Shown here: one piece after another, positions 44,133 to 50,163 of the stretch
Numbering within the stretch: position 1 is the first letter of the stretch
Layout: each line of letters begins with the position of its first letter
Assembly (NCBI GenBank): GCA_937904325.1
Contig: CALGTK010000125.1
Location: 1-50,757 of the forward strand
Direction: 5' to 3'
DNA: 50,757 nt
From: an uncultured Planctomyces sp.
Lineage (GTDB): Bacteria > Planctomycetota > Planctomycetia > Planctomycetales > Planctomycetaceae
Translations under genes and position numbers: made by a program
The notes under the pieces: generated by a model
Seen by the model: only the letters and a program-made list of their open reading frames with translations
Told to the model about the DNA's origin: nothing
The model's database searches: none

Positions 44133-46196
44133 TTACCACTGATCTTCTTCGTCTTCGGGAATCTCGTCGGCGTCGAGAGCCTTCAAGTGTTCCTCAGTGA
44201 AGAAGCGGTTGAGGAGCAGCCGAACTGGAACCAGCAGCGCAATGAATAGCGGGAATAGAATCCCGACAGCGCTGACTTTGACGATCATCAGAATACCCAG
44301 ACAGACCAACTGAATCAGCGTAAAAAAGTGCATCGTCCAGTGAGGAACTCGCTGCGTGTAGTGGTTTCTTGGGTACAGCGATGTGTCCATGATCCACAGA
44401 CTGAGACGTTCGAAGAGCTGATTGCCCTTCATTGAGACAATGCCCATGAACAGGAACAGACCGTAAAGAATGGCCATGGGAATTGCATTCAGATACTTCA
44501 ACAGGAACAGCGAACAGCCAATCAACAGATGGATGGAAAATCCGGTTAGACGATTCTCGCGAACATGAATAATGCGTTCCCGAGTTTCACCGCCGGGCGA
44601 AACGATCTCTTCCAAAGTTGCCAGGCTACGGACGTGATTCAACGATCGCACTGTCGCAGCGACCAGCCACGGAAGTCCGAACATTGAGCAGAATCCGATC
44701 AGAAACGCCAACAGCCCCAGATCAAAGTGGTAGGCTGCGCCTTTGGTCAACTTGTGATCAGGACTGTTGACCAGCCTCCCAGTAATGTTCTGATCCATGT
44801 AGACAAGCACCGTTACCAGTAGAGCCGGGACAATCGATCCAAACCAGACGGTAACCGGAGCATCAAACAGGTTGACGAACCAGGCACGGCCCTCAAGCGT
44901 CGGACGGAATGAATCCGGGGCGGGCAGAGTTTCGTAATCGACGTCGTGAAACCAGAACAACGCGACGGCAAGCATCATCCCCATTGAAATCGACGGACCG
45001 AAGTCGGCAAAGAATTCTCGAATCTTCGGATGCAGATAGCGACTGCGACGAAACGCCGTCATATTGCTGGCCAGGTAGAACGTGCCCATCGCCAGTAGAA
45101 GTGGAACCAGTGCCGCGTCATGGTCGCGTAATTCTTCGCTGTAGACACTCACCACGATGGCCACAAGCGCGTTCACCGCCGAATGGATAAAGATTATTGA
45201 AATCAGCGCAGCAAAAATCTCATCGGTGAATCTTGTGAAGTATCGCATCAGGTTACTGGCGTTGGTCAGCGACAGCAGCAGCAGCAGCACTGCCGTCCAG
45301 ACGCCAACCCACGCATACGTTGGCAGAAACGGGATGCCGTAATCTTCACAGATTTCATACAGGATCACCGTAAAGACGAGCAACGGCCCTGTACCGCCCA
45401 GAATGATCAGCGGCTGTCCGGAAAACAGTGCGTAGATGACACCGCAGAATGCCGAGGCCGCAATCATCTCGACCGCCCCGATGTGGTTGCCGGTCTGTTC
45501 AGCCATGATTCCGCCGAACGTGATCGCCGGAGCCAGGCAAGCAAACAGCAGGAACAATATCGAGCTGACGCTTTTCGGATGAAGCCCCTCCAGAAAGTCG
45601 GCCATGTAGTGCGGCAGTCGTCTTTTCAGGTCCTGCCGCACACCAGCACCAATCCCGGATGCAGGAGCCATTTCCGCTACATGCGAAGTGTCGGCTTCGA
45701 CCGGTTTGGCCGTTCGTGCCAACGTATGAGCAAAGGCGTCCCGCAACGCCAACGGCGTGTCGGCTTCGCCAAGTTCATAGCGAAACTCTGCGTCCGACAT
45801 TACCCGCGCAATGAGCGACAGCGTGTCGAGATGTTCCGCCGCTCTGCCGGTTGGCCCTAGCAGGAAAAAGAAGTACTGAGTCGGCGTACCGTCCGGAGCT
45901 CCCAGATTGATTCCGTGCTTGAGACGGACAAAAACGATCTGTGGCTCAGAAAGCGTTTCCAGATAGCAATGCGGAACTGCGACCGCGTTACCAATCGCCG
46001 TCGAGACAATCCGCTCTCGTTCGAGGAATATCTCGATGACGTTATCGCGTTCTTGCGCAGGCAACAGCTCCGAACTGATCATTCGATCGACGACCTGCGG
46101 GATAAGGTCTTCAATCTCTTTGGCTGTCAGATCAAGCAGACAGGTATCGTTGCTCGAAAACGTTCGTTCGAGATATTTCACAACAGGCTCTCTCAT
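44133..46196 (-). CDS. PTS EIIA-domain / SLC4 bicarbonate-transporter fusion
   Basis: 687 residues in two parts. Residues about 1-155 are a PTS EIIA type-2 (fructose/mannitol/Ntr) domain, with AIGNAVAVPHCYLE carrying the phosphorylatable His76, then RLKHGINLGAPDGTPTQYFF. After a linker, residues about 200-660 are a complete SLC4 (HCO3_cotransp) membrane domain: GGIMAEQTGNHIGAVEMIA, SGQPLIILGGTGPLLVF, YFTRFTDEIFAALISIIFI, ATVRSLNHVRSL, IPMAILYGLFLFMGIVSM and LKALDADE at the end. The site VLVYMDQNITGRLV has Asp468 and Thr472, matching the Asp/Thr of Na+-coupled NBC proteins rather than the Glu of Band 3 (recalled, not searched). It likely moves bicarbonate/carbonate, perhaps with Na+, under phosphorylation control. 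No EI or HPr gene is near. Confidence 0.88.
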   Translation of the reverse strand: MREPVVKYLERTFSSNDTCLLDLTAKEIEDLIPQVVDRMISSELLPAQERDNVIEIFLERERIVSTAIGNAVAVPHCYLETLSEPQIVFVRLKHGINLGAPDGTPTQYFFFLLGPTGRAAEHLDTLSLIARVMSDAEFRYELGEADTPLALRDAFAHTLARTAKPVEADTSHVAEMAPASGIGAGVRQDLKRRLPHYMADFLEGLHPKSVSSILFLLFACLAPAITFGGIMAEQTGNHIGAVEMIAASAFCGVIYALFSGQPLIILGGTGPLLVFTVILYEICEDYGIPFLPTYAWVGVWTAVLLLLLSLTNASNLMRYFTRFTDEIFAALISIIFIHSAVNALVAIVVSVYSEELRDHDAALVPLLLAMGTFYLASNMTAFRRSRYLHPKIREFFADFGPSISMGMMLAVALFWFHDVDYETLPAPDSFRPTLEGRAWFVNLFDAPVTVWFGSIVPALLVTVLVYMDQNITGRLVNSPDHKLTKGAAYHFDLGLLAFLIGFCSMFGLPWLVAATVRSLNHVRSLATLEEIVSPGGETRERIIHVRENRLTGFSIHLLIGCSLFLLKYLNAIPMAILYGLFLFMGIVSMKGNQLFERLSLWIMDTSLYPRNHYTQRVPHWTMHFFTLIQLVCLGILMIVKVSAVGILFPLFIALLVPVRLLLNRFFTEEHLKALDADEIPEDEEDQW

Positions 46197-47864: not shown

Positions 47865-49208
47865 TTACTGATCTGCCTTGCGGAAACGTTCACGAAGCAC
47901 GTAGACGGCCGCGCGGGCTTCTTTTGAGCTGCCACCTGCTGCAAATTCTTCAAGTTCCCGCGAAGTCTCGCGAGGTAAAGTCTTTAACTCTACCAGTAAT
48001 GTCGCCGCTCGACGGCGGACCTGTCGACTATCCTCCGACAACATCCTTACAAGAGTCGCAGCAACCAGCTTTGAATCGCGAGAGATTTTCCAGGCAGCAT
48101 CCACCGCCTCGATGCGAACGTGAATCGATGAGTTATCAAACGCTCGTTTGAGCCTGGAAACGACTGACTTCGCAGCAGTTCCCGTTTGACCGATCGCCCG
48201 AGCCGCTCGCCATTGAAGATTCGGGCCGCCGCGTTCCAACAGGTCAAAGAGCCTCGCGACGGCCGGGTGACCAATCTGGGCGAGCGCGTTGGCGGCCGCA
48301 TCTTTTACTGCATCATCCTCGTCAAGAATCAGGCGTTCAAAGAGCGCATCCATGCCCCCCTCGGCACGAGGCCCAAGTGCTCCCAGCGTGTCACAAGCCT
48401 TGCGGCGGACATTCGCATTATCGTCTTCCAAAGCCCGAACCAATGCCGGCACCGCTCCCGCAGCCAATGGCCCAGCCAAAGCCAGACTGTCGATGATCGT
48501 CTGTCGAAGAACGATTGACTCGTAGTCGCTCAGCCGCCGAGGCTTCATCAGCTCGATGGTCAGAACGTCAATTGAAGCCGCCGTACGAATCTGCCCGAGC
48601 GTGTCGGCAGCGAGCACTCGCAACTTCGCCGACGATGCTGGCGAGGTGAGAATACGCGAGACGGTTGAAACCGCATCCGCAGCGACATCGCCAAACAGAC
48701 CGAGACTTTTCATCACCCAATAACTTGGGTCGGCTTCGCTCGACGATTGGCCATCAGGAGAAACTGAAGGCTTCGAGAGTCGTACCCGGTCAAGAATATC
48801 AATCAGCACGGTAACGGCACCACGAGCGGGCTCGCCAATCCGACCAAGCATGGCCGCCGAACGCTCCCTCAATGTGGCATCGGTCTCAGAATTACGAAGT
48901 GCCGCAAGTAAACCGGGGACCGCGTCAGCCGCTTGTTCGCTAGCGGGATCGAGTTCCGCCAGCAACATTTCAATTCGCTCGCGACTTCCGACAGCCACTC
49001 CTGACTGAGCCGAACTTTTCGGATGAGGTGCCAGTTCGACGCCACCATTCGGAACGACCGAGTGTTTGCCGCGACTCAATTCACAGGCAAACGCCTGGCC
49101 GGCGGCAGCACAGACCGCGCACAGCACAGCTACGACTCGCTTGTCCCACTCGGGAATCCAAGTCTGCCGTTCCGCAGAGACTGAGGTTGTCTGGAATTTG
49201 CATCTCAT
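47865..49208 (-). CDS. Exported HEAT-repeat protein
   Basis: About 447 residues from the ATG at 49208. An N-terminal hydrophobic stretch (VVAVLCAVCAAAGQAFACE) may be a signal peptide. Most of the protein is HEAT/PBS-type repeats, for example AVPGLLAALRNSETDATLRER, ALVRALEDDNANVRRKACDTL and LILDEDDAVKDAAANALAQI. Such repeats form scaffolds for protein binding. The reading frame is open further upstream to 49739, but that part overlaps the divergent TerC gene and reads as random. It is followed closely by the TrmH-type gene. Confidence 0.82.
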   Translation of the reverse strand: MRCKFQTTSVSAERQTWIPEWDKRVVAVLCAVCAAAGQAFACELSRGKHSVVPNGGVELAPHPKSSAQSGVAVGSRERIEMLLAELDPASEQAADAVPGLLAALRNSETDATLRERSAAMLGRIGEPARGAVTVLIDILDRVRLSKPSVSPDGQSSSEADPSYWVMKSLGLFGDVAADAVSTVSRILTSPASSAKLRVLAADTLGQIRTAASIDVLTIELMKPRRLSDYESIVLRQTIIDSLALAGPLAAGAVPALVRALEDDNANVRRKACDTLGALGPRAEGGMDALFERLILDEDDAVKDAAANALAQIGHPAVARLFDLLERGGPNLQWRAARAIGQTGTAAKSVVSRLKRAFDNSSIHVRIEAVDAAWKISRDSKLVAATLVRMLSEDSRQVRRRAATLLVELKTLPRETSRELEEFAAGGSSKEARAAVYVLRERFRKADQ

Positions 49209-49368
49209 AGCTGTACAGTTTGCAGCATCCTGCCCCCGGTGAAAACCAGGAAACGACAATCGGACGGGTCTGGCTGCGGGCGAGCCATTTTCATCGCCTT
49301 TGAACCGATCGACTTTCGATGAGTTAAGACCGACTCTTTTCAGTACGGTTATTACCTCGGGATACCAA

Positions 49369-50163
49369 ATGGACCTCTTGATTGCTCTGATCGCTCTGGC
49401 CGCGATGGAAATCGTGCTGGGGATCGACAACATCGTCTTTATCGCGATCCTGACCGATCGCCTGCCCGAAGAAAAACGCAGCGCGGGCCGCCGAGTCGGT
49501 CTGTCGATCGCTCTGGTCATGAGAATCGGGCTGCTCCTGGGAATCAGTTGGGTTATGGGGCTGACGTCGCCAGTCTTCGCGTGGACCGACGTCGGAGCCC
49601 CTGACTCGTGGTTCGAAGTCGCAGCCTCAGCGGAATTCCGCGACCACGAAGCTGAGCGACTCGAAGAAGTTCGAACCGTTTCCGGCCGAGATCTGATCCT
49701 GCTGCTCGGCGGGCTATTTCTAATCTTTAAAACTGTCAAGGAAATGCACGAACAGATTGCCGGCGAACATCACCTCACCGGATCGAAGAAACCAATCACC
49801 TTCACCGCAGCTTTAATACAAATTGCTCTACTCGACCTTGTGTTTTCTCTCGACTCAGTCATCACCGCTGTCGGAATGGTCGACGACGTGAGGATTATGA
49901 TCGGTGCGGTAATTATCGCTGTCGGAGTGATGGTTGCCTTCGCCGACCGAATCAGCAATTTCGTCACGGCACATCCGACATTGAAAGTGCTGGCTCTGAG
50001 CTTTCTGTTACTGATCGGTGTGATGCTCCTGGCCGAAGGAGTCGGCACTCACGTCGAGAAAGGCTACATCTACTTCGCGATGGCGTTTTCGCTCTTCGTC
50101 GAATTTCTAAACATAAAAATCCGCTCCAAAGATGAAACTGCTGCCGCAATCGCCGACGCTTAG
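49369..50163 (+). CDS. TerC-family integral membrane protein
   Basis: 264 residues from the ATG at 49369, which opens directly into the first helix. The TerC signature is LLIALIALAAMEIVLGIDN, then VFIAILTDRLPEEKR. A second related half has QIALLDLVFSLDSVITAVGM, where the acidic residue in the membrane (LDxxxS-LDS) is conserved, and VFADRISNFV-like and FSLFVEFLNI segments follow. Seven or so helices are expected. Family members (TerC, YkoY, Alx) are linked to manganese export and metal loading of exoenzymes, but the role here is not certain. Divergent from the HEAT-repeat gene, 160 bp apart. Confidence 0.9.
   Translation: MDLLIALIALAAMEIVLGIDNIVFIAILTDRLPEEKRSAGRRVGLSIALVMRIGLLLGISWVMGLTSPVFAWTDVGAPDSWFEVAASAEFRDHEAERLEEVRTVSGRDLILLLGGLFLIFKTVKEMHEQIAGEHHLTGSKKPITFTAALIQIALLDLVFSLDSVITAVGMVDDVRIMIGAVIIAVGVMVAFADRISNFVTAHPTLKVLALSFLLLIGVMLLAEGVGTHVEKGYIYFAMAFSLFVEFLNIKIRSKDETAAAIADA

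Follow-up and report, generated by a model that had tools for sequence, protein, structure and literature searches.

A planctomycete SLC4-type transporter with an N-terminal PTS EIIA domain related to the cytoplasmic domain of animal SLC4 proteins

The cytoplasmic domain of Band 3, an animal SLC4 protein, is known to resemble the EIIA proteins of the phosphotransferase system (PTS) at the level of the fold. PTS of the Ntr type are known elsewhere as regulators of potassium transport. Citing Parker and Boron (2013), a 2015 review describes bacterial SLC4-like proteins as being without the large N-terminal domain, and adds that no isolated homologous or ancestral gene for the SLC4 N-terminal domain can be identified (PMC4664831). 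The abstract of a 2026 review names only animal, plant and fungal SLC4 proteins, and the review shows no text on bacterial SLC4 proteins (PMC13263692). An SLC4-like protein of the bacterium Nitrococcus mobilis, functionally uncharacterised, has been cited as 'primitive' (PMC8738779). Plant and fungal BOR1 share the SLC4 membrane domain but have no EIIA/Band 3 domain (PMC4664831; PMC13263692), and fish slc4a11a has been annotated with a PTS_EIIA_2 domain (PMC7692064). No published bacterial EIIA-SLC4 protein was found in the literature searched, which covers subscription journals incompletely; domain databases may show such architectures.

The gene described here lies in a 50,757-nt stretch of DNA (the window) from an uncultured Planctomyces sp. 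(assembly GCA_937904325.1, contig CALGTK010000125.1). It is a single intact ORF with an ATG start and no internal stops (Table 1). A sequence-only reading of the window had proposed an EIIA type-2 domain with an intact phospho-accepting histidine, His76, in the motif AVAVPH, followed by a full SLC4 membrane domain, and Pfam searches with the 687-aa protein bore out both parts. PTS_EIIA_2 (PF00359) matched residues 16-153 (E=2.6e-23), and HCO3_cotransp (PF00955) matched in two stretches (E=2e-177; 592 bits, cut-off 27). Band_3_cyto (PF07565) was also retrieved above its curated cut-off of 34.3 bits, at residues 79-142 (E=2.1e-13), overlapping the PTS_EIIA_2 match; it scored 51 bits with the whole protein and 57 bits with the EIIA domain alone. 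The NCBIfam profile TIGR00834 (anion exchange protein) scored 546.6 bits, under its curated cut-off of 599.45. In its own genome (8.0 Mb, 488 contigs), the gene is the sole occurrence of PF00955.

The closest homologues, 90% (L003) and 88% (L004) identical, come from independent planctomycete MAGs and carry the same fusion. Both keep an acyltransferase-like gene, a small ORF, a SpoU methylase, a HEAT-repeat protein and TerC as neighbours, while kbl, tdh and gpx are kept in L003 but fall beyond the end of L004. The sequence-only reading had named a frame join as a possible artefact; recurrence of the fusion and its neighbours in two independent MAGs, together with the shared architecture of further planctomycete homologues, rules out this and any other assembly artefact. 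Further along the window (47865-50163), a long HEAT-repeat ORF on the minus strand overlaps the TerC gene on the plus strand by about 440 bases, and the N-terminal part of this ORF as listed probably reflects a start placed too early.

Table 1. Positions in the window of the EIIA-SLC4 gene, its domains and its predicted functional residues
Feature	Position	Strand	Basis
EIIA-SLC4 fusion gene, 687 aa	44133..46196	-	ORF, Pfam, homologues
N-terminal PTS EIIA type-2 domain, residues 16-154	45735..46151	-	PF00359; AF2 pLDDT 93; fold matches
His76, predicted phospho-acceptor, in AVAVPH	45969..45971	-	H in 34/34 in-frame copies
Arg60, EIIA active-site Arg	46017..46019	-	33/34 copies
His122, second EIIA active-site His	45831..45833	-	34/34 copies
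Linker, residues 155-184, model partly of low confidence	45645..45734	-	pLDDT ~50 in residues 161-180
SLC4 membrane domain, residues 185-677	44166..45644	-	PF00955; fold match to AE2, BOR1, BTR1, Band 3
Thr269 (NDCBE Thr538 position, anion site)	45390..45392	-	Alignment; PMC8478935
Asp468 (NDCBE Asp800 / AE1 Glu681 position)	44793..44795	-	Alignment; PMC8478935
Arg517 (AE1 Arg730 position; Leu in NDCBE)	44646..44648	-	Alignment; PMC8478935
Lys640 (NDCBE Lys970 / AE1 Lys851 position)	44277..44279	-	Alignment; PMC8478935

PF00955 was detected above its cut-off in 14 of the 392 sampled genomes of the phylum and in 31 of the 170 genomes of the window's family. All 13 near-complete homologues of the first sample have the EIIA-SLC4 architecture, which was found in about 35 planctomycete homologues. 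Among the copies readable through the N-terminus, 34 have the EIIA active-site stretch in frame; in another (L104) it is present across a frame change. Contig ends truncate L103, L108 and L014. These fusions contradict the published statement that bacterial SLC4-like proteins are without the N-terminal domain. In one homologue of the same phylum (L017, G147:C238), the N-terminus ahead of the SLC4 domain is short and contains no EIIA, so that EIIA is dispensable for some members; this protein provides a natural comparator. In plasmid and phage collections, the matches listed covered the EIIA part only. The window's own genome also encodes a second SLC4-type EIIA domain (L034, G000:C475:53-463), 63% identical to that of the window, which runs off its contig. 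Since three genomes of the same genus (G424-G426) have two SLC4 copies each, this is probably the beginning of a second, truncated copy.

The EIIA domains linked to SLC4 stand apart from other EIIA domains in their likeness to the animal cytoplasmic domain. Band_3_cyto matched 15/15 of the SLC4-linked domains (best E=2.3e-22) vs 9/30 of the others (best E=2e-5), the latter set being made up of 28 loci from planctomycetes, an HTH-linked domain encoded in the window's own genome and Escherichia coli PtsN. The seed of this Pfam model may or may not include bacterial sequences; our own profile searches and trees are independent of it. A profile built from the SLC4-linked EIIA domains retrieved NBCe1 (3.6e-19) and AE2 (1.5e-18), whereas one built from the other EIIAs retrieved PtsN at 5e-42 and AE2 at just 2.6e-4. 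The NBCe1 match comprises two collinear parts (profile positions 7-61 and 77-158), between which lie 77 residues in NBCe1 vs 15 in the bacterial profile, at the phospho-His loop. Judged from this alignment, the animal domain keeps both EIIA halves and has a long insert at the site of the loop. In SLC4A11/BTR1, the phospho-His position falls at or near a Gln in a MAFFT alignment that is uncertain at this point.

A tree of 50 EIIA-type domains, based on about 145 columns with long animal branches and with the insert omitted from the aligned sequences of five animals, separated 14 SLC4-linked and six animal domains from the 30 others with 99/97 support. In the profile searches, the SLC4-linked set lay far closer to the animal domain than did the 30 control EIIAs, which leads us to reject a chance likeness of the EIIA fold to Band 3. 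Kinship due to fusion with transporters in general is likewise rejected, as the split held (99/95) when 16 EIIA domains from other fusions were added and SLC4A11 was omitted. These sequence comparisons show a specific kinship between the SLC4-linked EIIA domains and the cytoplasmic domain of animal SLC4 proteins, in agreement with the earlier suggestion that the fusion resembles a form preceding loss of the phosphorylation site in eukaryotes. In structure, the AF2 model of the EIIA domain matched the animal proteins BTR1 (Z 16.1) and AE2 (Z 15.9), and PtsN with Z 19-20. PtsN (EIIA-Ntr) also shares the active-site His, the second His, the Arg and the regulatory type; unlike PtsN, the window's EIIA domain is fused ahead of an anion transporter and branches apart from the 30 sampled EIIAs.

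In EIIA-Mtl and PtsN, the positions that match Arg60, His76 and His122 make up the phosphotransfer site. Together with Pro75, these residues are kept in homologues down to 37% identity. A conserved histidine alone does not establish phosphorylation, and His76 is a predicted phospho-acceptor. Partners for such a relay are encoded in the same genome: a search for EI and HPr, which the sequence-only reading had suggested, found both on contig C272, where an hpf-like gene, EIIA, HPr and EI stand in a row. The fusion gene (C125) is apart from these genes and shares no operon with them. The genome has a single HPr and four EIIA-2 domains. HPr was found in 13/14 SLC4-bearing genomes, the exception being a fragmented genome that is 84% complete. 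Profile searches of the window's own genome retrieved no EIIC (PF02378) and no HPr kinase (PF07475). Because relay genes are present and PF02378 is absent, the relay looks regulatory rather than sugar-transporting. The EIIA domain of the fusion looks like a live PTS domain. Another gene of this genome (L036, G000:C176) joins an EIIA domain to an HTH/excisionase-like DNA-binding region, and its product is a possible PTS-controlled regulator.

All residues of the NDCBE substrate site, whose roles have been described (PMC8478935), are present in the 687-aa protein: NDCBE Thr538, Gly539, Asp800, Thr804, Thr847 and Lys970 correspond to Thr269, Gly270, Asp468, Thr472, Thr515 and Lys640. The Asp468/Thr472 pair is thus where the sequence-only reading had placed it, but the case for Na+ coupling that the pair suggests held up less well. 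Arg517 aligns with AE1 Arg730, a position occupied by Leu849 in NDCBE and Ile803 in NBCe1, Na+-coupled members being without Arg there (PMC8478935). The protein therefore has the Asp that the Na+-coupled subgroup carries at the Na+ site, and Arg in place of its non-polar residue. Within the bacterial family Arg517 hardly varies, while Lys640 is variable. Position 468 holds Asp in the majority of copies, Glu in five, and one of Ser, Thr, Cys or Leu in 11. In 10 of these 11, Thr269 is also missing; conspicuous as a count, this amounts to just two changes on the tree and is given here as a pattern, without statistics. Given Asp468 next to an AE-type Arg517, and the variation at 468, we do not class the protein as Na+-coupled, and the case for Na+ coupling is weakened. 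By homology, bicarbonate or carbonate is the most likely predicted substrate.

Among proteins of solved structure, NBCn1, NCBE and NDCBE come closest in sequence (E to 2.9e-124). The AF2 model of the whole protein (pLDDT 80) matched AE2 (Z 44.9, 2.1 Å over 487 residues), BOR1 (Z 45.1), Band 3 and BTR1. Inward-facing BTR1 gave the best whole-model match, with both domains overlaid together (Z 47.6, 625 residues, 4.8 Å), the relative placing of the domains in the model having 14 sequences behind it and a pTM of 0.73. SLC4A11/BTR1 is nevertheless far more diverged in sequence, and its site has Glu/His vs Asp/Arg here. The animal proteins AE1-3, NBCe1, NBCn1 and NDCBE share the domain order and the fold of the cytoplasmic domain, and their membrane domains are 34-39% identical to the bacterial one in structure alignment. 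They differ in the long insert and in having no relay partners, and the bacterial ion site mixes an NBC-type Asp with an AE-type Arg.

In the membrane-domain tree, a 100/99 branch separates the distant BOR1 from bacteria and animals. A test of the bacterial sequences as a single clade, with BOR1 as a very long outgroup, rejected it marginally (p-AU 0.037), and animals fall near different bacterial rows in this tree and in the EIIA tree. The animal and plant sequences were PDB chains. At most, the analysis suggests descent from bacteria to animals.

Fusion of EIIA to transporters is a recurrent theme of the phylum and speaks for a control of transport by the PTS. A set of 20 long planctomycete ORFs bearing EIIA (L083-L102) comprised five Na+/H+ exchangers and as many amino-acid permeases, a pair of CNNM proteins, one each of a ClC channel, an ABC ATPase, a DisA-type cyclase, an HTH protein and an EI-HPr-EIIA protein, and three with no other Pfam match. 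PTS control of transporters appears to be broad across the phylum. In these other fusions EIIA is mostly C-terminal, vs N-terminal in EIIA-SLC4, as in animals. In the ORF at L099:1827-3320, EIIA is combined with a diadenylate cyclase domain (DAC) of the DisA type and with a DacZ_P sensor-like domain, and the protein could link the PTS to c-di-AMP.

From the domains, active-site residues, relay genes and kinship described above, we infer that the protein is probably an SLC4 secondary anion transporter, most likely for bicarbonate/carbonate, with a live EIIA domain whose phosphorylation at His76 gates transport. EI would take phosphate from phosphoenolpyruvate (PEP) and HPr would hand it to His76; the phosphorylation state of His76 would then change the position of the EIIA domain relative to the membrane domain and thereby gate transport, coupling bicarbonate or pH handling to the PEP/energy state of the cell. 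The same phospho-control might act on another substrate (borate, H+/OH-, chloride or a different anion). SLC4A11 and BOR1 are SLC4 members with different substrates, and the variation at 468 and 640 among the bacterial homologues points in the same direction. Against this, the membrane domain of this protein is nearer to AE/NBC than to BOR1 and keeps Thr269, Asp468, Thr472, Thr515, Lys640 and Arg517, so that we give a different substrate a modest chance. We consider it unlikely that EIIA is purely structural, serving in dimerisation or docking as in animal SLC4 proteins, with the histidine needed for folding or for HPr binding without phosphotransfer. The animal counterpart does function without the His, and the fold is close to the domains of Band 3, AE2 and BTR1. 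A structural role, however, fits poorly with the retention of Arg60, Pro75, His76 and His122 in 33-34 of 34 copies of a domain that otherwise drops to about 31% identity, with the loss of the loop in animals, which lack the relay, and with the co-occurrence of HPr and EI.

Signalling could also run in reverse, the conformation of the transporter altering how EIIA accepts or releases phosphate and so reporting bicarbonate or pH to the PTS. With one HPr to serve four EIIA-2 domains, cross-talk is possible in principle, but the phylum has many transport proteins that bear EIIA; this speaks for control of transport, and we consider the reverse direction quite improbable. That the EIIA domain hands phosphate to EIIB/EIIC for sugar uptake is barely credible: automatic annotation could label it so (it matches NCBIfam fruA, below cut-off), yet the genome lacks PF02378 and the membrane part of the fusion belongs to SLC4 instead of EIIC. 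Phospho-control of anion transport is thus the reading that we favour.

The EIIA-like fold of the cytoplasmic domain in animal SLC4 proteins has lacked an explanation, and dozens of planctomycete fusions with an intact active site make its origin testable. A further reading, which we consider a close call leaning slightly against, is that animal Band 3/NBC proteins carry as their cytoplasmic domain a retired PTS EIIA that was joined to the SLC4 membrane domain already in bacteria. Planctomycetes would keep the working form, in which PEP-dependent phosphorylation gates bicarbonate transport, and the animal proteins would derive from an EIIA-SLC4 ancestor in which the His loop was lost. The planctomycete proteins offer smaller bacterial models for a medically important transporter family and suggest direct gating of anion transport by metabolic phosphorylation.
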